Shown here: positions 28,126-43,036 of the stretch, one piece after another
Layout: each line of letters opens with the position of its first letter
How positions within the stretch are numbered: position 1 is the stretch's first letter
Made by a program: the position numbers and the translations under genes
The notes under the pieces: generated by a model
What the model saw: the letters and a program-made list of their open reading frames with translations, nothing else
Databases searched by the model: none
Told to the model about the DNA's origin: nothing
Assembly: GCF_900115005.1 (NCBI RefSeq)
Contig: NZ_FOUY01000024.1
Location: forward strand, 1-64,000
From: Pseudonocardia ammonioxydans
Lineage (GTDB): Bacteria; Actinomycetota; Actinomycetes; Mycobacteriales; Pseudonocardiaceae
Direction of reading: 5' to 3'
Length of the DNA stretch: 64,000 nucleotides

Positions 28126-28618
28126 CGTCGTCGTCCTCTCCGACGTGCCCGGCGCCGCCCCGGGAGCGGGACGGCGCACACCGTGCGGTGCATCCCGTGG
28201 CCTCGTGCCGATCTCCGGATCCGCTACGTGCGACCCGCCGACACCACCCGTCCGGCGGCGCCGCGCCCGTGTTCCACGGCTCCGGTCCGTGGCGTGCTCA
28301 CCGCGTCCCGGTCGGAGGCTCGTCGGGCCCGCGCGGCCGCGCGTCGTGCTGCGATCTCGCGGGCGATCTCGGCGCGCAGGGACCGGGCGGGCTCCGGCCC
28401 GCTCGCAGGGTCCGGCGGGGCGGGCACACGCGAGGTGGGGAGCCGGAGCCGGCCGTCGCCGTGGTCACGATCGGACGCGGCGCGAGCGGCTCCCGGGTTC
28501 GGAATGCACCATCGGGCCCGTCCGGGGGCTCGATCCCGTGCCTCGCCGACGCCCTGGCCGACCGCGCCGTCGAGAAGGTGGCGGGGAGATCACACCCGGG
28601 GTGAGACGATGTCGTAGG
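28126..28618. other. Stretch without a recognisable gene
   Basis: About 490 bases. A 67-codon leftward frame (28427-28224, helical, Arg/Ala-rich, GTG start) has no ribosome site and resembles nothing known. The base composition drops toward the right, marking the start of the accessory island. Confidence 0.4.
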
Positions 28619-29000
28619 TCATCCGGGAAACAGCTCAGCGTATCCGGCTGGTAGCTGCGACCGGACGTTGTCGAGCACGCCGGGGCTGACGAACTGGCCC
28701 AACAGGTCCAGCACTACCCGGGCGTGCACACGGGGCTTGCTCGGGGGTGCGGCCTGGGCCTTCGTAGTCGGCCAGCCGCTGCAGGAACTCGTCGACGTCG
28801 AAGGCCTCGGCAGGACCGGTGTGGCGGACAAGGGTCTCTTGGACTTCGCCCGGCAGCTGGGCAGCCAGGTTGGCAGGCTCGCCTCCGGCCAGTCGTCGGC
28901 CGAGTAGCTCGATGGTGCCGGTGATCGCGGTACTGGCCTCGTTGGCGGTGCTCAGATCGGTTCGGGTGCGCACGGCGGCGCACAGCTCGTCGTAGTGCAT
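28619..29000 (-). pseudogene. DUF2267 protein, broken by a single-base frameshift
   Basis: Starts well at ATG 29000 (GGAGAG upstream) with the DUF2267 pattern: MHYDELCAAVRTRTDL, ASTAITGTIELLGRRLAGGE, NLAAQLPGEVQETL, FDVDEFLQRLADYEG. Past about 28760 the homologous reading continues in another frame: VHARVVLDLLGQFVSPGVLD, NVRSQLPAGYAELFPG, ending at TGA 28619. The shift corresponds to one extra base (or two lost) in the C-rich stretch around 28715-28765. Intact, it would be about 125 residues, the usual family length. Either a decayed gene or a sequence error in a homopolymer. Confidence 0.75.
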
Positions 29001-29218
29001 CGGAGGTGGCTCTCCTTCCGGTCGGGAAAGGTGGACGGGGTCGGGGTGGAGCCGTGCCCCTCAGCTATCGAACGCGGACGGCGCGTTGCATTTCTGCTGT
29101 GAGCGGATTCGTCACATCCAGCGCAATTCTCGAGCACGCCGGCGAAGGTGGATGAGGGTTCGGACCTGGCCATTCCTTGAGCGACGTCGGAAAGCACCGG
29201 GACTGGCCCTTTCAGTGG

Positions 29219-29668
29219 CTAGTTGGTGCCGAGATGTGCTGCGGCTTCGTGTCGATCAGCGACGGAGTCACGGGCGACCGAGCGCAGGGCCGCGTCCACG
29301 GTGGGAAAACTGCGAACCTGTCCGAGGCGGGTGCGTGCCGAGACGCTCGCGGCCGTGAGCCCGGACGGATGGCCTGCGATCGCGAACTCGATGTTGCGCC
29401 GGGTGCAGGCGTAGCGGGCGTGCTCGATAGCTTGGGACCCACCTCGTTCGAGCGCTTCCAGCTGCGATACATCGACGATCACACCAACGACTCGCTTGTG
29501 GCCGCCGCGGGCCAGCAGCAGTTGCGAGTCGATCAGGCGCAGTAGCCGTGCTCCGGCGCCCGAGTCCAGCACGCCGTTCACACCGAGCAGCCGGACACCC
29601 GGCGCGGGTGTCTCGATCGTCAGTCGGGCGGGGCCGGGCGACGGGGAACCGGCATGCGAGGGCATCAT
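29219..29668 (-). CDS. STAS-domain protein (anti-sigma-factor antagonist-like)
   Basis: 149 residues from ATG 29668 (two consecutive ATGs; GGAGAG upstream). STAS fold: RLTIETPAPGVRLLGVNGVL, DSGAGARLLRLIDSQLLLA, KRVVGVIVDVSQLEALERGG, NIEFAIAGHPSGLTA, VRSFPTVDAALRSV. The usual phosphorylation motif D-S-x-G-L is replaced by LERGGSQAI, so classical partner switching is uncertain. No kinase partner is adjacent. Confidence 0.75.
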   Translation of the reverse strand: MMPSHAGSPSPGPARLTIETPAPGVRLLGVNGVLDSGAGARLLRLIDSQLLLARGGHKRVVGVIVDVSQLEALERGGSQAIEHARYACTRRNIEFAIAGHPSGLTAASVSARTRLGQVRSFPTVDAALRSVARDSVADRHEAAAHLGTN

Positions 29669-29777
29669 GAGGCACTCTCCGGTGCTGAGCGAGCCGAACA
29701 CTGCAACAGAGAGGGTGTGTCGGCTCAAGGCGGACCGGTGAGCTGGTCCTCAACTCGACGCGGAATGTCTTTAGGGG

Positions 29778-29803
29778 GTTACCGCGCGGTCTGGGCCGCA
29801 AAC
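29778..29803 (-). promoter_or_regulatory. Weak sigma-B/F-like promoter candidate before the STAS gene
   Basis: On the minus strand GTTT (29803-29800), 16 bases, GGTAAC (29783-29778), compared with the actinobacterial stress-sigma pattern GNNT-N14-16-GGGTAC/T. One mismatch in the -10. It lies 110 bases before the start. Suggestive only. Confidence 0.25.
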
Positions 29804-29915
29804 ATGAGTGCTGCTTCTGGTGCGTGCGGATCGCAAGATCCCCCTGCTGATCCCCGGCGCCGAACCTCATCCGGCCGCTCGCTCGGCTGGTCCTGGGCTC
29901 CTGAGCAGGTGCGGG

Positions 29916-30302
29916 TCATTCCTGGCTGGTGTCGGCGCCGTCGGGCTCCTGCCGGCTCAGCCGGGCACGGCGTTCCTGTTCGCGGCGGCTGCAGGCGGCC
30001 TGGCGGATGGCGTCCTCGTCAGCGAATCCCGAACCGAGTGCGCCGGCGACCGTGCCCATCGACATCGACAGCCAGGCGATCATCACATAGTCGCTCACTC
30101 CGGGCGGCTGCATCAGTGTGGAGCCGAGGTAGTCGGGTGGGAGGACCAGTGCGGCCACGAGCGGCACGACGACCAGACCGGCCCGCGGCCTGCGTCGCCG
30201 TGACGGCTGTGGCAGGTGCCCGGTGATCCCGCCACCGAGGACGGCGCGGGAGCCGGGTCCACCCGCATCGCCGATCCGGGCCGGGAGTAGCCAAAACGCC
30301 AC
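29916..30302 (-). pseudogene. Truncated paralogue of the membrane protein at 43222-44389
   Basis: Only the C-terminal membrane part is present. LVVVPLVAALVLPPDYLGST, GVSDYVMIAWLSMSMGTVAG and ALGSGFADEDAIRQAACSRR match in order LACLLFITPDYLATNLGHPC, GFGDYLDTALMATVMGLVAG and AVGSGLEDEATIRHATYGFR of the larger protein. The N-terminal cytoplasmic domain and first helices are absent, and the preceding DNA encodes something else. The first codons (MAFWLLPARIGDAG) may be unrelated. Most likely a remnant. Confidence 0.65.
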
Positions 30303-30356
30303 CGCCTCGAGCTCGGTGTCCGGGCTCTGCTCACCCGCCGCGCGGCTACGTCGCGA

Positions 30357-31193
30357 TCATCGCACCGGTCGTGCCGGAGTCCGGGCCGTTGCAGTGAGGG
30401 AGGCAGCGCGAGGCCCGAGGGCTGCGACCGCCAGTGAAACCAGAGTCGCGGTCCCCAGGACGACCCCCATCGCGGCGTCCGAGGAGATCCCACCGAACGT
30501 GACTCCGGTGTTCAGCGCCACGTGCATGAGCACCGCACCAGCGACACCGCCGGAGAGCCGCTCGGTGACGAACCAGAACAGATAGGACAGCGGCAGGAAG
30601 GAGATGAGGAACAACGTCGCTGCGGGCGATCCGATGCCCATCTCGGCCTGGCTGGTGCCGGGAACGAAGAACAGTGGCAGGTGCCACACCGCCCATCCGG
30701 CGCCGAGGACGGCGGATGTGGCGACCGGCCCGAGCCGGCGGCACAGCCGTGGCTGGGCGTATCCGCGCCAGCCGAACTCCTCGGCGAGTGGCCCCGCGAG
30801 GAGCAGCATCATCAGGGCCGGGAACAGGCCGCCGACGTCCTCGATCATCGTCGCAGCGGCCGCCGGGTCGAACATCGGACCTGCCAGGGCAACGGCGGCC
30901 GCCGACGGGAGCAGCCCGAGTGCCAGCGCGGCGGGAACCCACGCCCAGACCCGGGTCAGGACGGGACGCGCCGGGCCGCGCGGCCGCCGGTGTCCCGCGA
31001 GCCACAGCAGCAGCGCGGCGAGCGTCGGCCCGGACGTACCCACGAGGAACCAGACGTCACCCGGCCGGCCGACGGCGATCGTCATGGCCAGCGGGACCCA
31101 ACTGACCAGCATTGTGAGGACGGCGAACCAGGTCAGGTCGACCCCGGCCCGTGTCGTTCGTGAACCGGTGGCGGGATGTGTGACGACGCTCAT
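30357..31193 (-). CDS. CPBP-family intramembrane metalloprotease/glutamic endopeptidase
   Basis: 278 residues from ATG 31193. Multi-pass membrane protein with the CPBP (Rce1-like, formerly CAAX/Abi) motifs in order: EEFGWRGYAQPRL (E-E-x-x-x-R, about 160), WAVWHLPLFF (F/W-x-x-x-H, about 190) and LMHVALNTG (H-x-x-x-N, about 240). Family members cleave membrane proteins or act in bacteriocin self-protection. No peptide gene is evident nearby. It diverges from a TetR gene whose control region lies between them. Confidence 0.9.
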   Translation of the reverse strand: MSVVTHPATGSRTTRAGVDLTWFAVLTMLVSWVPLAMTIAVGRPGDVWFLVGTSGPTLAALLLWLAGHRRPRGPARPVLTRVWAWVPAALALGLLPSAAAVALAGPMFDPAAAATMIEDVGGLFPALMMLLLAGPLAEEFGWRGYAQPRLCRRLGPVATSAVLGAGWAVWHLPLFFVPGTSQAEMGIGSPAATLFLISFLPLSYLFWFVTERLSGGVAGAVLMHVALNTGVTFGGISSDAAMGVVLGTATLVSLAVAALGPRAASLTATARTPARPVR

Positions 31194-31314
31194 GGTCCGA
31201 GTCTCGCCAGCCGGGCGGGGACGACCGAGCCGGTCCGCCCGAGGATCGATATCGGGTTCTCCCGACCCGTGGCTTCCGGCGTCCCCCCGCCACCTCCGTC
31301 GCGGCGCCGGAGCC

Positions 31315-31343
31315 TTCAGATTACTGACCGACCGTGCTACGGT
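31315..31343 (+). promoter_or_regulatory. Promoter with operator-like repeat; leaderless start for tetR
   Basis: TTCAGA (31315-31320), a 17-base spacer, and TACGGT (31338-31343) place the transcription start at or next to the GTG at 31350, predicting a leaderless mRNA. A perfect inverted repeat GACCGT-GCT-ACGGTC (31330-31344) covers the -10, the position expected for autorepression. Confidence 0.6.
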
Positions 31344-31349
31344 CTGAAC

Positions 31350-31970
31350 GTGCGGTCTAATCCTAGTACGATTGGTCAATCGTCGACCTTCACCGAGCAG
31401 GCACGTCGGATCCAGATCGTGGAGTGCGCGATCGACACGATGAGCGAGCTCGGCTACGCGCGCTCATCCCTCGCCGAGATCGCGAAGCGAGCCGGCATCA
31501 GCAAGGGAGTGATCGCCTACCACTTCACCAGCAAGAACGAGCTCACCGAACAGGTGGCGCTCGAACTGTTCGGCCGGGCCGGTCGACTGATCGACACACG
31601 GCTCGAGGAGGCGCCGACCGCCACTGCGGCGTTGAGGGGGTACCTGGAGGCGAACCTGGCCTTCATCGGTGCGAATCCCGACCTCGTGCGGGTGCTGACC
31701 GACATCGTCATGAACTTCCGGGACGCGGACGGTTCCCCGCGCTACGGCCCCCAGGACGATGGGCTGATCGAGCACCTGGAGGGCACCTTGCGTCATGGTC
31801 AGGAGACCGGCGAGTTCCGCGACTTCGCCACTCGCGCCATGGCCATCGCGATCCGCGCGGCTGTGGACGCCGCAGCCGGCAGGATCGGCCGCGATCCGCG
31901 CTTCGACATCGGCACCTACACCCGGGAGCTGATCACGCTCGTCGGACTCGCCACCGCGAAGAGCCCCTGA
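31350..31970 (+). CDS. TetR-family regulator
   Basis: 206 residues from GTG 31350. Helix-turn-helix: RIQIVECAIDTMSELGYARS, LAEIAKRAGISKGVIAYHFTS (about 20-65, the K-x-x-I-A-Y-H-F signature). A C-terminal ligand domain of TetR_C type follows. It is co-translated with the next membrane protein gene (TGATG overlap) and divergent from the CPBP protease, which are its likely targets. A second palindrome ACGATTG-GT-CAATCGT lies inside codons 7-12. Confidence 0.9.
   Translation: MRSNPSTIGQSSTFTEQARRIQIVECAIDTMSELGYARSSLAEIAKRAGISKGVIAYHFTSKNELTEQVALELFGRAGRLIDTRLEEAPTATAALRGYLEANLAFIGANPDLVRVLTDIVMNFRDADGSPRYGPQDDGLIEHLEGTLRHGQETGEFRDFATRAMAIAIRAAVDAAAGRIGRDPRFDIGTYTRELITLVGLATAKSP
31368..31383. 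promoter_or_regulatory. Perfect 7-2-7 palindrome within the first codons of tetR
   Basis: ACGATTG-GT-CAATCGT, about 20 bases downstream of the predicted transcription start. A roadblock-type operator is plausible. It is AT-richer than its surroundings. Confidence 0.5.
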
Positions 31971-32692
31971 TGGCGACGAAGCCGCCGGAACCGGATCGGC
32001 CTGACCCCCGCGCGCAGCTCGTCATGATGGGGCTCGACATCGCCGCGCCGCTGGCCCTGTTCTACGGATTGCGGTGGGTCGGTGTGAACCAGTGGCTCGC
32101 ACTGATCCTCAGCGGCGTGGTGCCCGTTCTGACACTCGTCTACAGGTTCGTCACCGAACGCCGGATCGGCTTGCCGGCCGTCTTCACCCTCACGATCCTC
32201 GGCGCCGGCACGGCCATCGGCTTCCTCACCGGTGATCCGCGGCTTCTGCTGGCCCGCGAGAGCTACCTGACCGGACTGGTCGGCCTCTGGATCATCGCCA
32301 CACTGTGGCTCCCCCGCCCCTTCCTGCTGTCCGCCACCCTGCCGTTGCTGCCCGCGACGACCGCCCGCTCATGGGAACGTGACTGGGCGAACGACGCCAC
32401 GTTCCGCCGTGTCCTGCGCGTCATGACGTTCGCATGGGGCATGGCGTTCCTCCTCGACGCCGTCGCTCGGATCGTCATGGCCTACACCCTGCCGGTCGAC
32501 CTCGTTCCGCTGCTCAGCGTCGCGCTGCTGGTCGTGTTGTTGATCGCTGTCGTGCAGGTGAGCAAGGCCTACGGGCGTCGACTCGTCGCCGGAGGCCCTC
32601 AGCGGGCGACACCCCCGGTGCGGGACGGCAAGGGCGCGGAGACAGCAGGACTCGGCGGCGTCGCCGAGGGCCGCGACCACCAGGATCCGTGA
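31970..32692 (+). CDS. VC0807-like multi-pass membrane protein
   Basis: 240 residues from ATG 31970, overlapping the tetR stop by one base. Six helices: LVMMGLDIAAPLALFYGLRW, WLALILSGVVPVLTLVYRFV, LPAVFTLTILGAGTAIGFLT, YLTGLVGLWIIATLW, FAWGMAFLLDAVARIVMAYTL, VPLLSVALLVVLLIAVVQVS. Charged R-S-W-E-R-D-W between helices 4 and 5. Members of this family often follow TetR genes; no biochemical function is known. Confidence 0.75.
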   Translation: MATKPPEPDRPDPRAQLVMMGLDIAAPLALFYGLRWVGVNQWLALILSGVVPVLTLVYRFVTERRIGLPAVFTLTILGAGTAIGFLTGDPRLLLARESYLTGLVGLWIIATLWLPRPFLLSATLPLLPATTARSWERDWANDATFRRVLRVMTFAWGMAFLLDAVARIVMAYTLPVDLVPLLSVALLVVLLIAVVQVSKAYGRRLVAGGPQRATPPVRDGKGAETAGLGGVAEGRDHQDP

Positions 32693-32753
32693 CGGCGCCG
32701 CGCGATTCGAGCCACGGCCCGACGGCGTCCACCACAGGACGGGCCCACAGGTT

Positions 32754-33110
32754 GTGCCTGACCCGATGCCAGGTGTCCGGGTCGACAGCGATGGGTGGTT
32801 CGTCGTCGTCTGCCGGCCCCTCGCGGGACAGCGGCTTCACCCCGACGACCTCGCCGCCGGGTTCGGGATCGGCACTACCACGGCGTTCCGCTACATCCGC
32901 AAAGCGATCGGCGTCCTCGCCGCCGCGGCACGAAGCTGGACGTGCCACGGCGTGGACGTCGGCGCCGCCCTCGCGACGCAACCCGGCCCCGGTGAACGCG
33001 CGACCGCGATGTTCACGAGCTGGAAGATTCTGCGGAAGATCCGCTGCTGCCCGCAGCGCACCTCCGCGCTGGTCAACGCTCATGTGACGTCCCAATGGCG
33101 CGGGGGTACC
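32754..33110 (+). mobile_element. Internally deleted IS5-type transposase relic
   Basis: A rightward frame begins with a helix-turn-helix typical of these transposases (LHPDDLAAGFGIGTTTAFRY, IRKAIGVLAAAA). It then jumps to the family's C-terminal signature (GERATAMFTSWKILRKIRCC, PQRTSALVNAHV), normally seen as A-x-x-K-x-W-x-I-L-x-K-L-R-C-C-P. The whole DDE core between them (some 150 residues) is missing. No terminal inverted repeats were seen. Dead element. Confidence 0.75.
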
Positions 33111-33425
33111 CGAGGGAGCACTCGTCAACCCGCACCCTCGCGCCTCGACCTGATCGCCGGTGGGAGGACAGGGTGCTGGTGATCGCACGATGGTGGCGGC
33201 CCGTCTGCTGCTGACCCTGGTAGTTCTGGCGGGCGTGATCGCGGTGTCGGCCGGGGTCCCGCCCGTGGACAGCTCCGCGGCCGGGTCGCCGGCTACGGAT
33301 GGGTGGGGCCCGTCGTCTGGGTCGTCGTGCCCCGCAGGATGAGCCGGATGCCCTCGTCCGGGACGACGGCCGGCGGGGTCGGCCACAGCGCCGATGATCA
33401 CCACGGTCAGCGGTGCGAGCAGGAG
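33111..33425. other. Stretch without a convincing gene
   Basis: Contains a 50-codon rightward frame at 33190 with a signal-peptide-like start (MVAARLLLTLVVLAGVIAVS) but no well-placed ribosome site. On the opposite strand the reading frame of the small membrane gene at 33560 continues past its stop (LLLAPLTVVIIGAVADPAGR), suggesting the remains of a longer protein. Confidence 0.4.
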
Positions 33426-33560
33426 TCAGCCCGACGTGCCGTCCAGGGGCGATACGTAGGTGCCGAACAGCAGGGGCATCCCGGCGAGCAGCGTGAACCA
33501 GCTGCGCGTGTACCGGGCGCCCCAGTACGTCGTGCGGTCGCGTCGCCTCCTGCTCCCCAC
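33426..33560 (-). CDS. Small membrane protein, last gene of the B12/STAS operon; possibly truncated
   Basis: 44 residues from GTG 33560, 2 bases after the STAS stop, with GAGGGAGG 11 bases upstream inside the STAS gene. Sequence RRRDRTTYWGARYTRSWFTL then a hydrophobic LLAGMPLLFGTYVSPLDG. After the TGA (33426-33428) the same frame continues with another hydrophobic stretch, so a premature stop in a longer two-helix protein is likely. Not recognised as a known family. Confidence 0.45.
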   Translation of the reverse strand: MGSRRRRDRTTYWGARYTRSWFTLLAGMPLLFGTYVSPLDGTSG

Positions 33561-33562
33561 CG

Positions 33563-33967
33563 TCAGGTGCCTCCCTCGGACGAGTTCTCCGGCAACGGTC
33601 CCGGCCGGGCTTCGCGCGGCTCCGTCTCGCGGTCGTCGCAGGCGCCCGTGAGGTACTCGACGGTGTGGGTCACGACGAGCAGCCGTTCGAGTGCGCGGGC
33701 GCGGTTGTCCAGGTGCAGCTCGGCCGAGGCTGCGGTCACCAGTCGGCGCACCATCAGGAGCGAGGCGAGCCCGTAGGAGTCGCAGAACTGCAGGCCCGCA
33801 CAGTCCAGCCGGAGCCAGCGCACCGCACCGTGTTCGCCCAGCAGCTCCTCGACCGCCTTCGTCAGCTGGTCGGCGTTGGTGTGGTCGAGATCACCGGCGA
33901 TCGCGAGCCGGGCGGTGTCCGCGCGAGGACGGCTCCCGGTCAGGGACAGCTCCCCCAGGTCGTTCAT
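33563..33967 (-). CDS. STAS-domain anti-sigma-factor antagonist (RsbV-like)
   Basis: 134 residues from ATG 33967 (ATGA overlap with the upstream gene). STAS features: ARLAIAGDLDHTNADQLTKA, VRWLRLDCAGLQFCDSYGLA (the D-S-x-G-L phosphorylation site, Ser about residue 63), SLLMVRRLVTAASAELHLDN, RLLVVTHTVEYL. In partner switching an anti-sigma kinase phosphorylates this Ser and a SpoIIE-type phosphatase removes the phosphate. That phosphatase is encoded two genes upstream in the same operon. Confidence 0.9.
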   Translation of the reverse strand: MNDLGELSLTGSRPRADTARLAIAGDLDHTNADQLTKAVEELLGEHGAVRWLRLDCAGLQFCDSYGLASLLMVRRLVTAASAELHLDNRARALERLLVVTHTVEYLTGACDDRETEPREARPGPLPENSSEGGT

Positions 33968-35085
33968 GCCGGCTCTCCGGTTCGGTCCCGGGGCGGGTCG
34001 GCTGCAGGCGACGGCGGGTCCCCCGCAGCCGAGGGCCCGGGCGTGGAACGCCCGGCCGACGCCGACCGCACCAGTGCCGCGGCACGCGGGAAGTCGCGCA
34101 GCTGTTCGCCGAGCAGGTCCAGGGCGGGAGCCAGTACCCGTGCCGGGACCGACCGTGCGGCGAGGATCGATGCGGTCCAGTCGAGGAAGTCGGTGAAAAT
34201 GCCCGGATCGCCCGTGTAGAGCGCGACACCGAGGAAGTCGACGATGTGCCGGACGTCCTCCGCGGTCCGTTCACGCTGCGCGTCGTCGTAGTCGCCCACC
34301 TCCGGGAGCCGCTCGGCCAGCCGGTGTACCACCGAGGCGGCCAGTGCCGGGGCCTTGCGGCTCACCAGCGTGAACTCCTGGTCGGCCAGGTGTGGCAGGT
34401 CGTCGAGGGGCTGGGAGTTCGGGTGCTCCGGCGTGGGCAATCCGGACGCGAGGGTGTCGGCCGCCGACCGGGCGTCGGGCGCCCAGGCGTCGGCACCGAG
34501 CAGGCGGGCGTACCGGCCGTCCGCCCCGAAGGCGGCTCCCCCGACGATCACCGGCACTCCGGCCGCCTGGCAGGCGGAGATCGTCGCGTGCGCGGTGGGC
34601 AACCGGACCGCGAGGGACGACGAGAGCGCCACCGCGTCCGGGCCGGTGCGGTGCAGATGCGTGATCAGGTGCGGCGACGGTACCTGGGCGCCGAGGTAGT
34701 CGACGTCGAAACCGCGCAGGCGCAGCACCTCGGCCAGCAGCCGGGCGGGAAACGCATGCCACTCGCCGTCGACACAGGCCACCGTGACCCGTCCGGGCCC
34801 CCCACCTTCGACCGGGGCTGCTCCGGTCGGTGCGACGATGCCGATCACACGGTCGTTGATGGCGGTAGCGGCGTGTTCCTGGGCTACGGACAGGCGGTTC
34901 GCCGCCCACTCGCGCCCGACCCGCGCCTGGACCGCCCCGATCACCTCGAGCAGGACGGACTCGGCGTCCAGACCGTCACGCAGCGCGTCGGCGACGACCT
35001 CGGCCGCGGTGTGCTGGGCGCGACGCAGCACCGCCTCCCACAGCCGGTCGGCGTACCGGGTGGTCCGGTCGCTGTGTGTACTCAT
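33964..35085 (-). CDS. Cobalamin-binding sensor protein with CarH-like light-sensing motif
   Basis: 373 residues from ATG 35085 (ATGA overlap with the phosphatase stop). Residues about 10-85 form the helical B12-capping domain: W60-x9-E70-H71 (REWAANRLSVAQEHAATAIN), the signature of CarH/LitR photoreceptors. Residues about 97-230 form the Rossmann cobalamin-binding domain: RVTVACVDGEWHAFPARLLA with the lower-ligand His110 in E-x-H, LRGFDVDYLGAQVPSPHLI, PDAVALSSSLAVRLPTAH, GVPVIVGGAAFGADGRYARL. There is no MerR DNA-binding domain. The C-terminal 130 residues are helical and unknown (about 270-350), ending in a Pro-rich tail. Predicted to sense light or adenosylcobalamin and signal to the flanking phosphatase/STAS pair by protein contact. 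Confidence 0.88.
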   Translation of the reverse strand: MSTHSDRTTRYADRLWEAVLRRAQHTAAEVVADALRDGLDAESVLLEVIGAVQARVGREWAANRLSVAQEHAATAINDRVIGIVAPTGAAPVEGGGPGRVTVACVDGEWHAFPARLLAEVLRLRGFDVDYLGAQVPSPHLITHLHRTGPDAVALSSSLAVRLPTAHATISACQAAGVPVIVGGAAFGADGRYARLLGADAWAPDARSAADTLASGLPTPEHPNSQPLDDLPHLADQEFTLVSRKAPALAASVVHRLAERLPEVGDYDDAQRERTAEDVRHIVDFLGVALYTGDPGIFTDFLDWTASILAARSVPARVLAPALDLLGEQLRDFPRAAALVRSASAGRSTPGPSAAGDPPSPAADPPRDRTGEPA

Positions 35086-36725
35086 GCGGTGAACCGGCCC
35101 GGACCACGGCCGTCGACGGCCGCGAGGTGGTGGGTGTGTGGCGCGGTGACGGCCATGACGGCCATGTCGTCGTGGCTGTTGCGGCCGGCCCACTGGGCGG
35201 CCACCATCTGCACCCGCTCGACGACGGCCTCGGCGGGCATCCCGGCGCACTCGGCGGCGACCCGCCGCAGGCGGTCCTCGCCGAACATGTCCCGGCCGAG
35301 CGGGCCGCCCTGGGCCTCGGTGATGCCGTCGGTGTAGAGCAGGCAGGTCTCGCCGGGTGCGAGAGCGGTCGTGAAGGTCGTGCTCTCGATCGACGGCAGT
35401 GCGCCGATCAGCGTGCCGTGTGTGGCGGCCTCCTCCACCCGGCCGTCCGCCCGGATGATCAATGGCGGTGGGTGACCCGCGCAGGTCAGGCGCAGCCGGA
35501 TGTCCGCGCCGCGGCGGGTCACGGAGGCGAGCACCATCGTCACGAAGCGGGCGTGGGCGTCGGTGATCAGCGCGTCGTTCAGCAGACGCAGCAGCCGCGG
35601 GTGATCCTCGGCGAGCGGTAACAGCGCCTGCAGCGCGCTGCGGATCTTGCCGGTGAACACGGCCGCCTCCAGGCCCTTGCCGCACACGTCCCCGAGGACC
35701 GCGAGGGTCCCCCCCGACCCCTCGACTGCCGGGTGGACGTCGTAGAAGTCGCCGCCGACGCGCTCGTGGTCCTGGGAGGGCCGGTAGCCACCGGCGAACT
35801 CGACGCCGTGAAGGTGCTGCAACGTCGGCGGGAGCAGCTCCCGCATCAGGGTGTCGGTGATCGAGGCCTGGTCGGCGAACATCCGGGCGGCCGACATCGC
35901 CAGTCCGGCCCGCGTGGCGAACTCGCGTGCCGTGGTCTCCTCGCCCTCGCTGAACGGGCCGGAACCGGCGCGGCGCAGCAGCACGAGCGCGCCGGCCGGG
36001 ACGCCGTGGCCGGGCAACGGTGTGACCACGACGGACCCGATCTCGCCGAAGCCGTCCGGGGCGAGCCAGGCCGGGGCGAGGGCCGGGTCGATCCAGCGCG
36101 ACGGCACCGGCGGGAAACCCTGCAATGCCTCCGCAAGACCGGGCAGCTGCTCGGTGTCGATACGGCGCAGCACGGTCCGGGCCGTACGGGTGCCGGTCAC
36201 CGCGCTCGCCACCTGACACCGGCCCCGGGTCTCGGGGGCGATCACCAAGGCGGCATCGGCCAGTCGGCTCGCCGCGAGGTCAGCAGAGATCTCTATGCAG
36301 CGCAACACGTTCAGAGATCCCAGCAGTGCCGCGGACGCCTCAGCCAGGAACGAGGCGCGGGCCTGTTCGAGTCGCAGCTCGTCGCGGAGCGAACGGACGA
36401 CGGTGACGTCGATCAGCCACCAGGTGATCGACCCGTCGCCGTGCCGGACCGGGCGGGCGTCCACCGCACGGCCGTCGACGACGTCGCAGACCGGTCCGGG
36501 CGCCTCCGCCCGTCCGCACGCCGCGTCGTGCGCGGGGGCCAGCCACGGAACGACCTGCGCGAGCGGCTCCCCGGCCCGCAGCTGCGGCAACAGAGCGGCG
36601 GCCGACTGCCGGGCCTCCAGCACGAGGCCGGACGGGCTCACCGTCAGCGCCGCCGCGCCGCCCGCGTCCCGTGGGGTGTCGGTTGTGGGGGTCGGCTCGG
36701 ACGCCGAGGCTCGGACGACGCTCAA
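35082..36725 (-). CDS. SpoIIE/RsbU-type PP2C phosphatase with PAS and GAF domains
   Basis: 547 residues from TTG 36725 (GAGGAG 7 bases upstream). A PAS-like region (ALTVSPSGLVLEARQSAAAL..WWLIDVTVVRSL, about 20-125) and a GAF domain (ADLAASRLADAALVIAPETR..GSVVVTPLPGHGVPAGALVL, about 150-300) come first. The PP2C domain is about 320-540: VGGDFYDVHP, LAVLGDVCGKGLEAAVFTGK, LTCAGHPPPLII, LLYTDGITEAQGG, NSHDDMAVMAV, with the metal-binding Asp residues in place. Predicted to dephosphorylate the STAS protein encoded downstream. No anti-sigma kinase or stress sigma gene is in the window, so those partners must lie elsewhere. Confidence 0.92.
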   Translation of the reverse strand: MSVVRASASEPTPTTDTPRDAGGAAALTVSPSGLVLEARQSAAALLPQLRAGEPLAQVVPWLAPAHDAACGRAEAPGPVCDVVDGRAVDARPVRHGDGSITWWLIDVTVVRSLRDELRLEQARASFLAEASAALLGSLNVLRCIEISADLAASRLADAALVIAPETRGRCQVASAVTGTRTARTVLRRIDTEQLPGLAEALQGFPPVPSRWIDPALAPAWLAPDGFGEIGSVVVTPLPGHGVPAGALVLLRRAGSGPFSEGEETTAREFATRAGLAMSAARMFADQASITDTLMRELLPPTLQHLHGVEFAGGYRPSQDHERVGGDFYDVHPAVEGSGGTLAVLGDVCGKGLEAAVFTGKIRSALQALLPLAEDHPRLLRLLNDALITDAHARFVTMVLASVTRRGADIRLRLTCAGHPPPLIIRADGRVEEAATHGTLIGALPSIESTTFTTALAPGETCLLYTDGITEAQGGPLGRDMFGEDRLRRVAAECAGMPAEAVVERVQMVAAQWAGRNSHDDMAVMAVTAPHTHHLAAVDGRGPGRFTA

Positions 36726-36846
36726 GGGCGGCTCCTCGCGCTCGGCGGGCCGGCGGCCGAGGTCGGGTGCCGGTCGAAGGTCATCGTGGGAACGATACAG
36801 AGGCTGCGCCGTCCCGGCCCGGCGATGCAGCCCGGCAGAGCCCTGC

Positions 36847-36881
36847 GTGCCCCGGCGCCGGAGGGGGCGGCGCCGGGGCAC
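36847..36881. terminator. Perfect 14-bp hairpin
   Basis: GTGCCCCGGCGCCG (36847-36860) pairs exactly with 36868-36881, loop of 7. Second of two hairpins after the hsp20 operon, ahead of the phosphatase promoter region. Confidence 0.75.
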
Positions 36882-36902
36882 GGTCTCGGGAGACGCGCCG
36901 TC

Positions 36903-36929
36903 CCCCCGCGGGTGGTGTCCCCGCGGGGG
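36903..36929. terminator. Hairpin terminator directly after the hsp20 stop
   Basis: CCCCCGCGGG (36903-36912), 7-base loop, CCCGCGGGGG (36920-36929), 6 bases beyond the stop codon. With the next hairpin it separates the hsp20 operon from the phosphatase operon on the same strand. Confidence 0.75.
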
Positions 36930-36934
36930 CCGTC

Positions 36935-37378
36935 TCAGGAGGTGAGCTGCGGACGGTCCTGCGAGGTGCCGGACTCGATCGCGATCGTGCGCGGCCTGGC
37001 CGACTCGGCGACCGGGATCCGGAGGCGCAGGACCCCGGCGTCGTAGGAGGCACGGATCCGCTCGGTGTCCAGCCCGTCGCCGAGGAGGAGCTGACGGGAG
37101 AACACGCCGTAGGCTCGTTCGGAGGCCACCATCTCCTCCGGCTGCTCACCGGCCCGCGGTCGGCGCTCGGCCTTGACCGTGAGCGTGGTCCGTTCCACGG
37201 ACAGATCGATCGCGTCCGGGTCGATCCCGGGAAGGTCGAACTCGACCACGAACTCCTCACCGTGGCGCCACGCGTCCATCGGCATCGCCGCCGGCCGCGA
37301 CCACGTTCCCCCCGGTGCGTCGAACGCCTGCTGTGCCATCCGGTCCAGCACGCGGAAGGGGTCCGTCCTCATCAGCAT
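36935..37378 (-). CDS. Hsp20/alpha-crystallin small heat-shock protein (copy 2)
   Basis: 147 residues from ATG 37378 with GAGAGGAG upstream. Holdase chaperone. Alpha-crystallin domain: [80 protein letters not shown] (the G-V-L-x-x-x-I-P signature). About 75% identical by eye to the copy at 37540, from which it is separated by 161 bases; clearly a tandem duplication. Second gene of the operon. Confidence 0.95.
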
Positions 37379-37448
37379 CGAACATCACTCCTCTCGCCGG
37401 GCCGGCGCCGGTCGCCCGTGGTGGGACGCCCCGGCGCCGGCCGCCTGT

Positions 37449-37473
37449 CCACGGTCGGGCGCGCCGACCGTGG
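37449..37473 (-). other. 10-bp perfect stem-loop between the two hsp20 genes
   Basis: CCACGGTCGG (37449-37458), 5-base loop, CCGACCGTGG (37464-37473). Could be an attenuator or processing site adjusting expression of the second copy. Confidence 0.55.
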
Positions 37474-37539
37474 TGGAGACCGCTGGAGGGGCCGGGACGG
37501 CGGTCGCGCCCGGCCCGGTGCCTGCACCCTGCACCCCGC

Positions 37540-37983
37540 TCAGGCGGTGATCTGGGTCCGGTCGGCCGAGTGGCCGCTGTCGACCGCGATCGTGCGGGGC
37601 TTGGCTGCTTCGGCGACGGGGATCCGCACCCGCAGCACACCGGCCTCGTACGAGGCCCGGATCCGGTCGGTGTCCATACCGTCGCCGAGCATCAGCTGCC
37701 GGGAGCAGACGCCGTAGGGCCGTTCGGAGGCGACCCACTCCACGTCGTCGGCCTCGGCCTGCGTCGGACGACGCTCCACCTTGACCGTCAGGGTCCTGCG
37801 CTCCAGGGACAGTTCGACCGCGTCCGGGTCGATCCCGGGAAGGTCGAACTCGACCACGAACTCGTCACCGTGTCGCCACGCGTCCATCGGCATCGCCGCC
37901 GGCCGCGACCACGTTCCCGTCGTGTCGAGCGCCTGCGCGGCGAGACGATCCAGGGCGCGGAACGGATCCGTCCGCATCAACAT
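37540..37983 (-). CDS. Hsp20/alpha-crystallin small heat-shock protein (copy 1)
   Basis: 147 residues from ATG 37983 (GAGAGGGG upstream; GTG 37986 is an alternative). Same architecture as the neighbour: [80 protein letters not shown]. First gene of the operon and directly downstream of two palindromic sites and a promoter-like sequence, so it is probably heat- or stress-regulated. Confidence 0.95.
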
Positions 37984-38051
37984 CACGAACCACCCCTCTC
38001 CGGGGCCCGCGGGCCCTCGACTCAGATCAACCACATGCCGTGCCGAAGAAC

Positions 38052-38093
38052 TATCCGCCCCGAACGGGCGGATACCTCAACTCTAGAGTTGAG
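38052..38093 (-). promoter_or_regulatory. hsp20 promoter with two perfect inverted repeats
   Basis: 18-base perfect palindrome CTCAACTCTAGAGTTGAG (38076-38093), followed on the minus strand by TATCCGCCC-N5-GGGCGGATA (38052-38074). Read leftward, TTGAGG at the palindrome edge, a 17-base spacer and CGGATA give a plausible promoter embedded in both repeats, about 70 bases before the first hsp20 start. The palindrome has the TTGAG/CTCAA arms in opposite order to the HspR HAIR element and is not a CIRCE, so the regulator is unknown. The MerR-like protein at 38627 is a candidate. Confidence 0.65.
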
Positions 38094-38105
38094 ATTTTTC
38101 GGTTG

Positions 38106-38360
38106 TCAAGCGCTGATGTGCGCGTCCGGTCGGCGCCGCTCGATCGCGCGCCCTCCCGCCCGCCTGGCCATCGCCCAGTGATCGTGGAGGATCATCCCGG
38201 CCCCCGTCAGCGGAAGCGTCAGCAACGCGACCACTGCCCACACCACGCCTCCAACGCGCGCCCACCGGTCGATCAGGACCGCCGCAAGCAGCACCAGGAC
38301 GAGCAGTCCGACCCCGACCACCAGGGCGCGCACACTCCTCCACGCCGCGCGCATCACCAT
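38106..38360 (-). CDS. Small two-helix membrane protein
   Basis: 84 residues from ATG 38360 (GTG 38366 possible; GAGAGAGAGG upstream). TM1 SVRALVVGVGLLVLVLLAAV, TM2 VVWAVVALLTLPLTGAGMIL, then a basic tail HDHWAMARRAGGRAIERRRP. No family recognised. It lies directly upstream of the hsp20 operon on the same strand. Confidence 0.6.
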   Translation of the reverse strand: MVMRAAWRSVRALVVGVGLLVLVLLAAVLIDRWARVGGVVWAVVALLTLPLTGAGMILHDHWAMARRAGGRAIERRRPDAHISA

Positions 38361-38403
38361 CGACACCCTCTCTCTCCGCCGCTATCGCCCCTGACAGCGG
38401 ATG

Positions 38404-38429
38404 CTGTATATCTACAGTTACCAGTGTAG
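38404..38429. promoter_or_regulatory. Overlapping inverted repeats in the divergent spacer
   Basis: CTGTA-N4-TACAG (38404-38417) overlaps CTACA-N8-TGTAG (38412-38429). CTACAGT recurs at 38483-38489. AT-rich against the surroundings, between the leftward membrane protein gene and the rightward MerR-like gene. Likely an operator cluster. Confidence 0.45.
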
Positions 38430-38495
38430 TATTTACGCCAGGTCTGCTGCAGGAGAGGAGACGATGTAATGGCCACCTAGGGCTACAGTCACCAC

Positions 38496-38609
38496 ATGGG
38501 CACTCGTCCAGGTGTGCTGATCGGTGAGTACCTACGACCGGAGCGTCCGCTCACCGGACGACGACCTGCCGTGGACGATGCACATCACCCGGTGTCCGGT
38601 GGCACGTAG
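38496..38609 (+). CDS. Possible 37-residue leaderless upstream ORF before merR
   Basis: ATG 38496 follows TACAGT (38484-38489) by 6 bases with no ribosome site, which would suit a leaderless start. The frame ends at TAG 38607-38609, 17 bases before the MerR-like ATG. Product MGTRPGVLIGEYLRPERPLT plus 17 more residues; unrecognised. No good -35. May be chance. Confidence 0.25.
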   Translation: MGTRPGVLIGEYLRPERPLTGRRPAVDDAHHPVSGGT

Positions 38610-38626
38610 CGCGAGAGGAGTCCCGG

Positions 38627-39073
38627 ATGGGAGTAGAACGGCTCGACGACCCCGACTACCCGGCCGTCGCCATGGGCCAGGCCGCGCACCTGCTCGACGT
38701 CGAGCCGGCATTCCTGCGGAGCCTGGACAGTGCAGGGGTGGTGAACCCGCACCGTTCGGCGGGCGGTCACCGGCGCTACTCCCGCCGTCAGCTCGAGCGG
38801 GCCGCCCGGCTCCGTGAGCTGCTCGACGACGGCCACTCGCTGGAGTCGGCATCGACGATCGACCAGCTCCGCACCGACCTGGCCGCCAGCGAGTCGCAGC
38901 TCACCGCCGCGAACGCCGAGGTCGACCGTCTCCGTGTCGAGCTCGGCCACACCCGTCCGGCGACATCCGAGCACGCGCCCACCGCGGACGGTCCGCACCA
39001 GCCGCTGCCCTTCGATGACTCCGAGTCCTTCGATGATCGCCCGTCCTCCGACGATCGGGAGGTCCCCGAGTGA
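38627..39073 (+). CDS. MerR-family-like regulator with C-terminal coiled coil
   Basis: 148 residues from ATG 38627 (GAGAGGAG upstream). MerR winged helix: YPAVAMGQAAHLLDVEPAFL, RSLDSAGVVNPHRSAGGHRR, YSRRQLERAARLRELLDDGH (about 10-70), close to HspR/soxR-like helix-turn-helices. A coiled coil follows (IDQLRTDLAASESQLTAANA, EVDRLRVELGH, about 78-108), then an acidic tail. Its position beside an hsp20 operon with palindromic promoters suggests it controls small heat-shock proteins. Confidence 0.82.
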   Translation: MGVERLDDPDYPAVAMGQAAHLLDVEPAFLRSLDSAGVVNPHRSAGGHRRYSRRQLERAARLRELLDDGHSLESASTIDQLRTDLAASESQLTAANAEVDRLRVELGHTRPATSEHAPTADGPHQPLPFDDSESFDDRPSSDDREVPE

Positions 39074-39435
39074 ACGCTGCCCCGACCACCAGCACCGCCC
39101 CCCGGACCGCGGGACCCGTCGCGGCCCGCGCCCGCGACGACGCGATCCGGCGGTTGAGCGGCGAGTTCAGCTTGCTCATCATGACCGGGCGACTGACCAC
39201 CCGCGACGTCGTGACCGCGGTAGAGGACAGCTTGCGCGAACTGACCTTGGCCGGTGCGCCCGTCGCCTGCCTGCCCGAGTTCGTCGAGCGACTGGCCCGG
39301 GTACGCCTCGCCGAGGTCACCGACGAGCCCGGTCACACCGTGGGGGGTGGCGGGGACGCGCACACCGACCGGCCGGTGGGCGGGCGGCGGCCGCGAGAGA
39401 CGGGTGTGCTCGCCACCCGGGCCTCACCGCGGTGA
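39070..39435 (+). CDS. Hypothetical helical protein coupled to merR
   Basis: 121 residues from GTG 39070, overlapping the MerR stop (GTGA). Core ARARDDAIRRLSGEFSLLIM, TGRLTTRDVVTAVEDSLREL, VACLPEFVERLARVRLAEVT is helical and amphipathic (about 20-80). The C-terminus is disordered. Not recognised; the overlap suggests it acts with the MerR-like protein. Confidence 0.6.
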   Translation: MNAAPTTSTAPRTAGPVAARARDDAIRRLSGEFSLLIMTGRLTTRDVVTAVEDSLRELTLAGAPVACLPEFVERLARVRLAEVTDEPGHTVGGGGDAHTDRPVGGRRPRETGVLATRASPR

Positions 39436-39554
39436 GATGTGCGGTAACAGCGACGGGGGTGCATCGGACATCGTCCGAGGAGTCGCGGACGCGAGTGGGA
39501 TGTCAACCGAGTGACCAACCGGAACGGATCCGGATGGACCGGTGAAGGGAGCCA

Positions 39555-40436
39555 GTGGTGGACGAACGGCAGTGGGACGCCGACCGGGACCGGTTCGTCC
39601 GCGACTGGACCGACGCCGCGACCGAGCACCGCGAACCCCTGCGCGACCACGGGTTCCCGCTGGGCCCGCTCGGCAGGCAGTTCGCCGTCCTGACCTACAG
39701 CCTGCTGGACGCGGCCTCGGTCGGTGACGTGCTGGGCCAGATCGTGGCCGCCACCGTCGGGCTCGTGCCCCGGGCCGAGCGGATCAGCGTGGTGCTGCGG
39801 ACCGGCGACCGTTTCGACGTGGCCGCCGCACACGGGCCCGGGCCCGCCGAGATCGACGAGCTGCAGCGCAAGCTGCAGGAGGGACCCGCGATCGAGGCCG
39901 CGAAGCTGGGGAGCCCGGTACCCGTGCTGTCCCGCGACCTGTCGACGGAACGACGGTGGGCGCGATGGGCCCCGGCCGCCCGCGAACTCGGCGTCGGTTC
40001 GGTCCTGTCCACGCACCTGCGGGCCCGGATCGGCGTCGACCGCCCCGGCTCGGAGAACGGATCCGAGCCCGCCCGGGCCCCGTCCGGCGCGCTCACGATC
40101 TACACCCGCGAGCCGCACGGGCTCGACGACGTCGACCCCGACCAGGTGCTCCTGCTCGCCACCCACGCCTCCCTCGCCCTGGCGGCCACCCACGCCGGCA
40201 CGAGCGCGCAGCTGATGGAGACCAACCTGCGGCGCGCGGTCGACAGCCGCGACGTCATCGGGCAGGCCAAGGGCATCCTGATGGCCAGCCGCAACATCGA
40301 CGCCGGTGCGGCGTTCGACATCCTGCGTCGCACCTCCCAGGACCTCAACGTCAAGCTGTCCGACATCGCCGAGACCCTGGCGACCCGCCACCACGAGCTC
40401 GGGAGCCAGGCGACGCCTGCCGGCACCGACAGCTGA
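39555..40436 (+). CDS. GAF and ANTAR domain regulator (second copy)
   Basis: 293 residues from GTG 39555 (GAAGGGA upstream; GTG 39558 alternative). The N-terminal extension of about 40 residues includes GPLGRQFAVLTYSLLDA. GAF domain (about 50-190): LVPRAERISVVLRTGDRFDV, LQEGPAIEAAKLGSPVPVLS, GVGSVLSTHLRARIGV. ANTAR (about 220-275): SRDVIGQAKGILMASRNIDA, AAFDILRRTSQDLNVKLSDI. Predicted RNA-binding antiterminator responding to an unknown ligand. Only distantly similar to the copy at 18659. Confidence 0.92.
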   Translation: MVDERQWDADRDRFVRDWTDAATEHREPLRDHGFPLGPLGRQFAVLTYSLLDAASVGDVLGQIVAATVGLVPRAERISVVLRTGDRFDVAAAHGPGPAEIDELQRKLQEGPAIEAAKLGSPVPVLSRDLSTERRWARWAPAARELGVGSVLSTHLRARIGVDRPGSENGSEPARAPSGALTIYTREPHGLDDVDPDQVLLLATHASLALAATHAGTSAQLMETNLRRAVDSRDVIGQAKGILMASRNIDAGAAFDILRRTSQDLNVKLSDIAETLATRHHELGSQATPAGTDS

Positions 40437-40720
40437 GCTTCCGGCCCTGTGCCGACAATGCGCCCGGGCCAAGCCCTGTCGATCAGCACGGTTCCGCTGT
40501 GCGTCGAAGACCACCGGCCTCGCCGTCGCCCGCAGCTCCCGGGAGTGCGCCGGCACGGTCCGCGGTACGGATGAACGTCCTGCCTGTGGGTACCCGGTGA
40601 GCGTCAGCCGTGCCGTACGGCGGAGGTCTCCGGTGATGGTGACGCTTACCCACACCGACCGGTGGGCGTACCGGCCCGGCACGGTGCACCGGCCCGCCCC
40701 CGACACGGCGGGGTCCTGAC
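40437..40720. other. Stretch without a recognisable gene
   Basis: 284 bases. Short frames only; the last (about 28 codons, ending 4 bases before 40721) has no assignable family. Probably decayed DNA belonging to the same remnant as the methyltransferase. Confidence 0.35.
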
Positions 40721-41208
40721 ATGGCGGCGCTGCTGCTCTGCCCGCCCGGCGTCTACCGGCCACAGTCCGACTCGGAGCTGCTCGCACGCGCCATGGCGCA
40801 GTCCGGCCGGGCGTCCGGACGCGAGGTACTCGCATCTGCACGGGAACCGGCACCGTCGCGTTGGCCGCCGCACGCAGCGGGGCCCGCTCGGTCAGCGCCG
40901 TCGACCTGTCGCGGCGTGCGACCTGCGTGGCCCGGCTCAACGGCCGGCTGCACCACGCCGGACTGGCGGTGCACCGCGACGACCTGTTCGCCGCCGTGCC
41001 CGGCCGCCGGTTCGGGCTGATCACCGCGAACCCGCAGTACGGTTGCCGGGATCGTGGGACGGCCCGGTCCGCGTGGTGGCCCGTCGACCGACGTGCTTCC
41101 GGTTCGCCACCCGGCGAGGTCATCCCGAAGCAGGGCAGATCGAGTTCGGGCCGGGATGCTGGCCGGGGAGTTGTTGTTCGAGATCGAGTCCTGGGCACGC
41201 AGCGGTGA
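40721..41208 (+). pseudogene. HemK2/MTQ2-like methyltransferase, frameshifted and internally deleted
   Basis: Begins MAALLLCPPGVYRPQSDSEL (first frame), typical of HemK2/PrmC-like methyltransferases. Near 40830 one base is missing: the frame changes and continues with the SAM motif CTGTGTVALAAARSGARSVS, AVDLSRRATCVARLNGRL, DLFAAVPGRRFGLITANPQY (normally N-P-P-Y). Just after, the frame changes again and a C-terminal fragment (PVRVVARRPTCFRFATR) appears without the central region. Clearly dead. Confidence 0.7.
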
Positions 41209-41554
41209 CCGTGGCCGACCTGTTCTACGACCGGTTGGGCCTGAGCCAGGAGCTGCAGCTGCACATGTGGGCACACTTCTGTCAGCGCGCGGCGGTCCTC
41301 GCCGGAGGCGTCGCGGACGGCGTCGCGGTGTGCACGAACCGCACGGCGTGGTCCGCCGGCACTGCGCGCGGCTGACGCCGGCCCGTACCCGGTGCGTCGC
41401 TTGCCCCGGCCTCCGCGACGGCGTCGTCCAGTACGGCGTTGGCTCCGGGGATGTCGAGGCGCTACAGCACCGTCTCGTCGCGGACCCGTTGCATCGCCCA
41501 CGCCAAATGAACGACAGCGGGCCGTGATGGCGGAGGCGGGCGAGGTGCAATAAA
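41209..41554. other. Degenerate stretch without a convincing gene
   Basis: About 346 bases. A rightward frame reads TVADLFYDRLGLSQELQLHM, WAHFCQRAAVLAGGVADGVA but has no start signals and matches nothing I recognise. Possibly further decayed sequence. Confidence 0.35.
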
Positions 41555-41570
41555 ATGAACACCAGTTCAT
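41555..41570. promoter_or_regulatory. Perfect 6-4-6 inverted repeat, probable TetR operator
   Basis: ATGAAC-ACCA-GTTCAT, 27 bases before the ATG of the TetR gene in a locally AT-rich promoter region. A half-site GTTCA recurs at about 41579. Typical autorepressor position. Confidence 0.65.
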
Positions 41571-41597
41571 TCAACGTAGTTCACTCGACGGAGCGCG

Positions 41598-42206
41598 ATG
41601 CCACGAACCCCGGAGCAGAACGAGTCCCTCCGCGCCGCGACGCAGGAGGCGATCCAGACGGCGGCCGTCCGCGTGTTCGCTCGCCGCGGGTTCGCTGCCG
41701 CGAACATGCGGCAGATCGCAGCGGAGGCGGGGCTGAGCACCGGGTCGATCTATCGCCACTACTCCGGCAAGGAGCAATTGTTCGAGCACCTGCTCGCGCA
41801 GGCCTCGGCCGGCCTCGACGCCGCGGCCGAGCGGCTCCAGCGCGACGGGTCACCCCTCGTGCTCGTCCGGGACTTCACGATGACGTTCCTCGCAGACATC
41901 GTGGGAGAGCGCGGAGCGCTGGAGTTCTTCCAAGTCATCAATCAGGGGTTCCTCACCGACACCCCGCCGGGGACGGCACGGCGGATGGCCGCGGCACAAC
42001 GCTCCTTCTGGCGGACTTTCGCCGACCTCGTGCGACGCGGCCAGGAATGCGGCGAGTTCGCCGCCGGCGACCCCGAGCAGGTCACGGGGTACTACTTCGC
42101 GACGCTGTCCGGCATCGCGACCATGCGGCGGGCCATGGATGACGAGTTCGGCGAGTCCGGCGTCGCACTGGTCCTCCGCCTGCTCACCGGAGGACGAGGG
42201 ACATGA
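41598..42206 (+). CDS. TetR/AcrR-family regulator
   Basis: 202 residues from ATG 41598. Helix-turn-helix: AIQTAAVRVFARRGFAAANM, RQIAAEAGLSTGSIYRHYSG, KEQLFEHLLAQA (about 18-70). C-terminal ligand domain with LVRDFTMTFLADIVGERGAL and YYFATLSGIATMRRAMDDEF. It overlaps the acetyltransferase gene by 4 bases (ATGA), so it controls itself and that gene. Confidence 0.92.
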   Translation: MPRTPEQNESLRAATQEAIQTAAVRVFARRGFAAANMRQIAAEAGLSTGSIYRHYSGKEQLFEHLLAQASAGLDAAAERLQRDGSPLVLVRDFTMTFLADIVGERGALEFFQVINQGFLTDTPPGTARRMAAAQRSFWRTFADLVRRGQECGEFAAGDPEQVTGYYFATLSGIATMRRAMDDEFGESGVALVLRLLTGGRGT

Positions 42207-42813: not shown

Positions 42814-43036
42814 CAGAGGTCGGAGCGGCCTACGCCCCCGGCGGGGCTTCTCACTCCCTCGCCGGTAGGGATGCCGGCCGGCCCCCCGGGGGGTGGGCTT
42901 CACCGGCCGGTCAGGTCCTCGGTCACCGGCTCCCGCTGGCGCCACGGTGACGAGGTAGCCGCGGTCAGGACCGCGACAGCGACTCCATGACGCCGCGTCG
43001 GCGTATGCGTCGGCGCAGTGTGGGTAGGACGTGGAG

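Follow-up and report, generated by a model that had tools for sequence, protein, structure and literature searches.

What does a cobalamin (B12) protein of the light-sensing CarH/LitR kind do, when its gene lies between those of a phosphatase and an anti-anti-sigma factor? The question is raised by a locus of Pseudonocardia ammonioxydans, within a stretch of 64,000 nucleotides (contig NZ_FOUY01000024.1, positions 1 to 64,000; hereafter the window), where the genes of a SpoIIE/PP2C-type phosphatase, a B12 protein of 373 residues and an RsbV-like STAS protein follow each other (Table 1). A sequence-only reading had proposed a B12 light sensor wired into a partner-switching stress pathway. We found that the B12 protein is, judged from its sequence and predicted fold, a stand-alone photocobilin, composed of a CarH-type B12 domain and a photoglobin. 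We consider it likely that the three genes form a coupled partner-switching input, with a PAS/GAF-SpoIIE phosphatase, the photocobilin as its light-sensing regulator and the RsbV-like STAS protein as the substrate. Since these three genes occur together widely among actinomycetes, light is probably an input to a stress sigma factor.

Through phmmer search of the PDB, the best match of the 373-residue protein was SasPcob of Saccharothrix syringae (8j2x, E 1.8e-72, residues 14-335), and no closer PDB sequence was found. The photocobilin part of AbDPcob came second (8j2y, E 9e-42), followed by matches to the B12 part alone (1y80, E 3e-12; CarH entries, E 2e-9 to 2e-8). An AlphaFold model made from 25 sequences (predicted local distance difference test, pLDDT, 88; predicted template modelling score, pTM, 0.85) was also closest to photocobilins, which took the first five Foldseek matches, headed by 8j2x (E 8e-25, template modelling (TM) score 0.89 by target length). 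Because the sequence and predicted-fold matches to SasPcob cover both domains, the C-terminal region, described earlier as unknown and helical, is assigned to a photoglobin, and an orphan domain is ruled out. The C-terminus being a biliverdin (BV)-binding globin, the predicted sensor therefore carries two chromophores. PF02607 and PF02310 both scored above the Pfam cut-offs, and Pfam found no MerR DNA-binding domain in the protein, as the sequence-only reading had noticed; the CarH model NF052513 scored 55 bits, far under its cut-off of 400. The further statement that in known B12 photoreceptors the sensor is fused to MerR is outdated, since stand-alone and enzyme-fused photocobilins were published with structures in 2024 (PMC10979010).

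To place the protein among the photocobilins, we aligned 167 sequences, none shorter than 280 residues; the set contains two references and some duplicate genomes. In this alignment it is 45% identical to SasPcob, and in the tree it belongs to a clade of 128 sequences (support 1.0) with SasPcob outside, the latter pairing with the photocobilin of locus L104 (65% identity). Its nearest named relatives are from Pseudonocardia, 71% and 68% identical.

The chromophore residues W61, E71-H72, E106-x-H108, D270 and W296 of SasPcob align to W60, E70-H71, E108-x-H110, D277 and W303 of the window protein; D270 and W296 are described as the biliverdin residues in the available text of PMC10979010. The signature W60-x9-E70-H71 with H110 was thus correctly placed by the sequence-only reading, and its homologues keep it: W60, E70, H71, E108 and H110 are identical in 61/61 aligned sequences (window included), and of the 167 sequences 161 have the B12 pattern WEHEH and six have WEHDH. 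The BV tryptophan is kept in 60/61, the exception being a truncated sequence, and the BV aspartate in 42/61, replaced otherwise by Val (seven), Cys (six) or others (five), with one truncated sequence. Biliverdin can probably be made by this bacterium, because its genome encodes one heme oxygenase above the Pfam cut-off. The Val or Cys in place of the BV aspartate marks a lineage within the L107-L120 photocobilins (not all of them), and a Cys there could matter for bilin binding.

The gene order was examined in two draws of genomes, both including the window's genome. Photocobilins were searched at E<=1e-20 in 200 genomes of the family and were found in 74, and they were found in 26 of 396 genomes of the phylum, the window's own being counted each time; six of ten other genomes drawn from the genus contained one. 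Sixty family loci with long flanks were used, from 82 places besides the window (22 left out), together with named loci, the best 80 of 440 relatives, from Pseudonocardia, Amycolatopsis, Saccharothrix, Streptomyces, Actinomadura, Mycobacterium, Nonomuraea, Nocardioides and other genera. With the window these make 141 loci, duplicates included; at least 12 contigs, recognised by equal length, occur in both the family and the named set. SpoIIE is the immediate same-strand neighbour upstream in 57/60 family and 80/80 named loci, so the gene association is not unique to this strain, and STAS lies directly downstream in 40/60 (38/60 by a narrower rule) and 70/80. After removing shared contigs, the counts are 125/128 for SpoIIE and 100/128 for STAS. 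As internal control, the same-strand bin at -1 kb holds SpoIIE in 135/140 loci, against 0-3 loci for each of the remaining 1-kb bins out to 5 kb on both strands; considering also that the window's genome has only six SpoIIE matches in 7.4 Mb, the adjacency is not by chance. In the phylum draw, viewed with flanks of about 1.5 kb, SpoIIE is upstream at 11/11 places from the same order or class. Five of six Streptomyces plasmid records were viewed, and four of the five have the phosphatase upstream. The reading frames of the L092 photocobilin and of the L089 and L078 phosphatases look split or mostly missing, through assembly error or decay; L078 was scored SpoIIE-positive on a match of 54 residues only.

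The junctions between the genes are conserved as well. Both ATGA overlaps pointed out earlier are present in the window. Among the 141 loci, 137 phosphatase-photocobilin and 111 photocobilin-STAS junctions could be scored, the window's included, and 120 and 106 of them, respectively, have a start codon at the -4 overlap. The overlaps imply translational coupling; that they "force equal expression" was too strong a wording. The phosphatase probably starts, by our reading of the sequence, from a TTG codon 6 bases behind GAGGAG. The sequence-only reading had counted four overlapping or abutting genes, three of which (phosphatase, B12 protein and STAS) stand with their ATGA junctions. The fourth, a small membrane protein read from a 44-codon open reading frame (ORF), was rejected as a system gene: no counterpart was seen behind STAS in 10/10 relatives judged by eye, and phmmer at E<=1 across 61 loci matched only the window's own copy. 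Because of this lack of counterparts, the ORF probably lies outside the phosphatase-photocobilin-STAS system.

Among the domains PAS-GAF-SpoIIE that had been read from the phosphatase, SpoIIE is secure (Table 1), GAF was matched at E 0.007, below the Pfam cut-off, and PAS was matched by no model in the profile search. GAF matches at E<=0.01 were obtained for 14/27 phosphatase sequences, window's included. In the AlphaFold model (pLDDT 84, pTM 0.54) a PAS-like domain would precede a GAF-like one, as read from the order of strands and helices, and the top Foldseek matches are PP2C phosphatases, the first being 3ke6 (RsbU-RsbW structure). The GGDFYD, GDVCGKG and HDD stretches are invariant or nearly so across the 27 sequences. 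A phytochrome-like chromophore in the PAS-GAF part was considered and rejected, since Foldseek gave TM scores to phytochromes of only 0.21-0.27 (query length), as a generic PAS-GAF order would yield. In the STAS protein, the RsbV-like character and the D-S-x-G-L phosphosite reported before are confirmed, CDSYGL being the predicted phosphorylation site; TIGR00377 matched at E 9e-12, under its cut-off. D-S is kept at this position in 39/41 STAS matches beside photocobilins, and is missing in L104 (FSSPGI) and in the second STAS match of L074 (FASAGL).

Table 1. Features of the phosphatase-photocobilin-STAS locus; coordinates are positions in the window
Feature	Coordinates	Strand	Evidence
SpoIIE/PP2C-type serine phosphatase, 547 residues	35082..36725	-	PF07228 E 1e-41
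Stand-alone photocobilin, 373 residues (predicted)	33964..35085	-	phmmer to 8j2x; Foldseek; AlphaFold
B12-binding_2 four-helix bundle, residues 12-83, W60 and E70-H71	34837..35052	-	PF02607 E 7e-13
B12-binding Rossmann domain, residues 98-208, E108-x-H110 (lower ligand)	34462..34794	-	PF02310 E 3e-18
Photoglobin (biliverdin-binding, non-heme globin) domain, about residues 236-346, D277 and W303	34048..34380	-	alignment to 8j2w/8j2x; helices in AlphaFold model
ATGA overlap, phosphatase stop / photocobilin start	35082..35085	-	read from sequence
ATGA overlap, photocobilin stop / STAS start	33964..33967	-	read from sequence
RsbV-like STAS protein (anti-anti-sigma factor), 134 residues, phosphosite CDSYGL	33563..33967	-	PF13466 E 3e-11; PF01740
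44-codon GTG ORF, one hydrophobic stretch	33426..33560	-	ORF only

The other partners of a switching pathway were searched around the photocobilins. Kinase matches, by our own model and within about 5 kb on either side and either strand, were found in 30/80 named loci, and a SigB/F/G-type sigma factor lies on the same strand within the cluster in 6/141 loci from two families, all six above the TIGR02980 cut-off. Four of these (L107, L112, L117 and L120) belong to one genus and have the order kinase - SigF - STAS - kinase - SpoIIE - photocobilin - STAS. The other two are from Streptomyces: in L208 the order SpoIIE - photocobilin - STAS is followed by a kinase and then the sigma factor, in L183 by a second STAS and then the sigma factor. 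A kinase match accompanies the sigma factor in five of the six, the exception being L183. Five kinase domains exceeded the Pfam HATPase_c_2 cut-off (two in L107 and one each in L208, L104 and L154), and the kinases of L112, L117 and L120 were recognised by our own model alone. In the window's genome, a STAS, a kinase and a SigF gene are adjacent on another contig (C76), away from the operon. The wiring into partner switching is thus borne out among the relatives, with SpoIIE and STAS beside most photocobilins, kinases beside some and a SigB/F-type sigma factor beside six.

Considering these data, the following mechanism may be proposed. Without light, adenosylcobalamin (AdoCbl) would be bound by the photocobilin, W60 lying over its ribose, E70-H71 acting across the dimer and H110 serving as the lower ligand, and biliverdin would probably also be held in the C-terminal globin by D277 and W303. 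Green light would cleave the Co-C bond and red light may work through biliverdin, upon which the dimer would rearrange. The photocobilin would contact the phosphatase, with the PAS/GAF part as the likeliest site, and change how fast phospho-STAS loses its phosphate; STAS in the unphosphorylated form would bind an anti-sigma kinase, and a SigB/F-type sigma factor would be freed. We infer in this way the activity of this protein and its sign, the phosphatase as direct target, and the kinase and sigma factor served. The phosphatase is favoured as target because SpoIIE is a steadier neighbour than STAS, which is an argument from linkage and not a proof.

Work by others on relatives has shown that they bind their chromophores, respond to light and control an enzyme in trans. 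According to the available text of Zhang et al. 2024 (PMC10979010), SasPcob and AbDPcob bind AdoCbl and BV, light-state photocobilin raised diguanylate cyclase activity in trans, and BV-free SasPcob had the opposite effect. The same text ties SasPcob to SpoIIE and STAS by STRING networks, suggests a role in stress, and states that the function of standalone photocobilins "is less clear". Genome-neighbourhood networks were also made there, and its supplementary figures may show part of the association counted here.

Several observations weigh against the proposed light input. No kinase or sigma factor match was found at 28001-43000 of the window, the nearest HATPase match within it being at 9646-9837. 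The photocobilins of L107, L112, L117 and L120 belong to a lineage in which Val replaces the BV aspartate, and those of L183 and L208, 59-60% identical to the window's, are the only sigma-linked ones close to it; the sigma link of the window's lineage therefore comes from these two Streptomyces loci. The BV aspartate is lacking in 19/61 sequences, one of them truncated, and since this residue is not universal, biliverdin may be dispensable. The sign of regulation is not predictable, because BV-free SasPcob acted oppositely in trans. As to distribution, no photocobilin match at E<=1e-20 was found in four of the ten other genus genomes drawn, and at places outside the class in the phylum draw (flanks of about 1.5 kb) SpoIIE was upstream in 0/18 and downstream in 1/18. 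Three of the 60 family loci have no SpoIIE upstream (L098, L106 and L121), STAS is missing directly downstream in 20/60 family and 10/80 named loci, and on one Streptomyces plasmid (L242, 57.8% identical) the photocobilin lies by gas-vesicle genes with no SpoIIE neighbour. A fusion of phosphatase and photocobilin was flagged in none of the 80 named loci.

Those STAS counts bear also on the strongest alternative, that the photocobilin acts on the STAS protein, sequestering or shielding the anti-anti-sigma factor in one light state. RsbR and RsbS, which hold RsbT, offer a comparison for it, and STAS is the other coupled gene, with the -4 start codon in 106/111 scored junctions. Globin-B12 proteins are also homologous enough to the RsbR globin to have been used as an outgroup (PMC10151467, in the text available). 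STAS, however, is missing far more often from its place than SpoIIE, whose gene is absent upstream in only 3/60 and 0/80 loci, and we regard this alternative as unlikely. It is more doubtful still that the protein senses the supply of AdoCbl or the redox state, photolysis being incidental. The photosensory residues are the very ones that hold AdoCbl, and the closest characterised relatives nevertheless respond to light (both from the available text of PMC10979010). In one relative (L241) the phosphatase gene is immediately preceded by one for an adenosylcobinamide amidohydrolase, but such a neighbour occurs in 0/141 other loci, and the photoglobin would stay unexplained. Least probable is a non-sigma output of the STAS protein, for example to a MarR-type regulator or a cyclic di-GMP enzyme. 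Partner switching has such outputs too; in 13/141 loci (eight of them strong) a MarR-like match is seen no further than 2.5 kb downstream, in the same orientation, and three of the five Streptomyces plasmid relatives viewed carry an annotated MarR gene after STAS. There is, however, no MarR match at 28001-43000 of the window, while SigBFG factors stand in the cluster of six loci, which come from two families and in five cases have a kinase match as well; the kinases of L107 and L208 are confirmed by Pfam.

Returning to the phosphatase-directed light input, we might speculate on a wider role throughout the Actinomycetes. A two-colour photoreceptor, green by AdoCbl and red by biliverdin, would be a standing, translationally coupled subunit of a dedicated SpoIIE phosphatase, and visible light would be a general and ancient input of SigB/SigF stress responses in soil actinomycetes. 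A side lineage, found in four genomes of one genus inside a sigF cluster, would have lost the BV aspartate (often to Val or Cys), being B12-only or holding the bilin differently. We advance this wider picture tentatively and with slightly more doubt than belief.

Compared with known systems, the window protein shares with SasPcob (PDB 8J2W, 8J2X) the same two domains over about 320 residues, the AdoCbl residues and the two BV residues, as well as STAS and SpoIIE partners, which the STRING network of SasPcob contains (PMC10979010, text available); the two differ in their limited identity and in the clade mentioned above. AbDPcob (PDB 8J2Y being its photocobilin part) has the same B12 and globin core, but a diguanylate cyclase is fused in its chain, and its BV aspartate is a His, with weak BV binding according to the available part of the same paper. 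CarH/LitR (PDB 5C8A, 5C8D, 3WHP) has the same light-sensing B12 core of W-x9-EH and E-x-H, whereas the window protein has an extra globin in addition to lacking MerR. The RsbU/RsbV/RsbW-SigB and SigF switches likewise use a PP2C phosphatase and an RsbV-like STAS protein, joined in some relatives here by a kinase and a SigBFG factor; the differences are the photocobilin in the input role and the lack of a kinase or sigma factor match beside the window operon.

Searching for literature that joins B12 or cobalamin with SpoIIE, STAS, anti-sigma factors or partner switching, we found only PMC10979010 and a review on flavin photoreceptors, and no published test of the phosphatase link was found in the literature searched, as far as its available text goes. 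The photocobilins and their stand-alone members are already in print, as is a possible connection of SasPcob with STAS/SpoIIE and a role in stress (PMC10979010, available text). New, as far as we have seen, are the counted conservation of the overlapping architecture, the sigma-factor-linked clusters, and the 128-sequence clade of the window protein that excludes SasPcob. The gene order and the sigma-linked clusters make the role of a stand-alone photocobilin testable, as an effect of its light state on dephosphorylation of the neighbouring STAS protein. If true, light would be an input of the stress sigma pathway in many soil actinomycetes. The Bacillus stressosome has a LOV protein, and the chromophore pair here is unlike it. 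The phosphatase and photocobilin would also provide a natural and separable photoreceptor-phosphatase pair.

Some neighbouring genes were compared with the 141 loci as candidate parts of the system. Two Hsp20 genes and a MerR-type regulator lie beside the operon (36935-37983 and 38627-39073); their proteins were rejected, matching in 1/141 loci, the window itself. A GAF-ANTAR protein of the window was rejected with matches in 3/141 loci, window included, and so were the genome's heme oxygenase and CbiZ, each with 0/141. The amidohydrolase gene of L241, mentioned above, occupies 3435-4115 of this locus, on a Streptomyces fungicidicus plasmid. The strong MarR-type matches after STAS are in L160, L162, L191, L193, L200, L207, L212 and L225, and the annotated MarR genes on plasmid relatives are in L238, L239 and L240; a MarR-type regulator is a possible fourth member in Streptomyces. 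Elsewhere in the window, a second weak STAS-like protein (29219-29665), below the Pfam cut-off, is encoded near a DUF2267 gene (28635-29000), and two genes (18659-19393 and 39555-40436) combine an ANTAR domain with a GAF-type match, one of the GAF matches being below cut-off.

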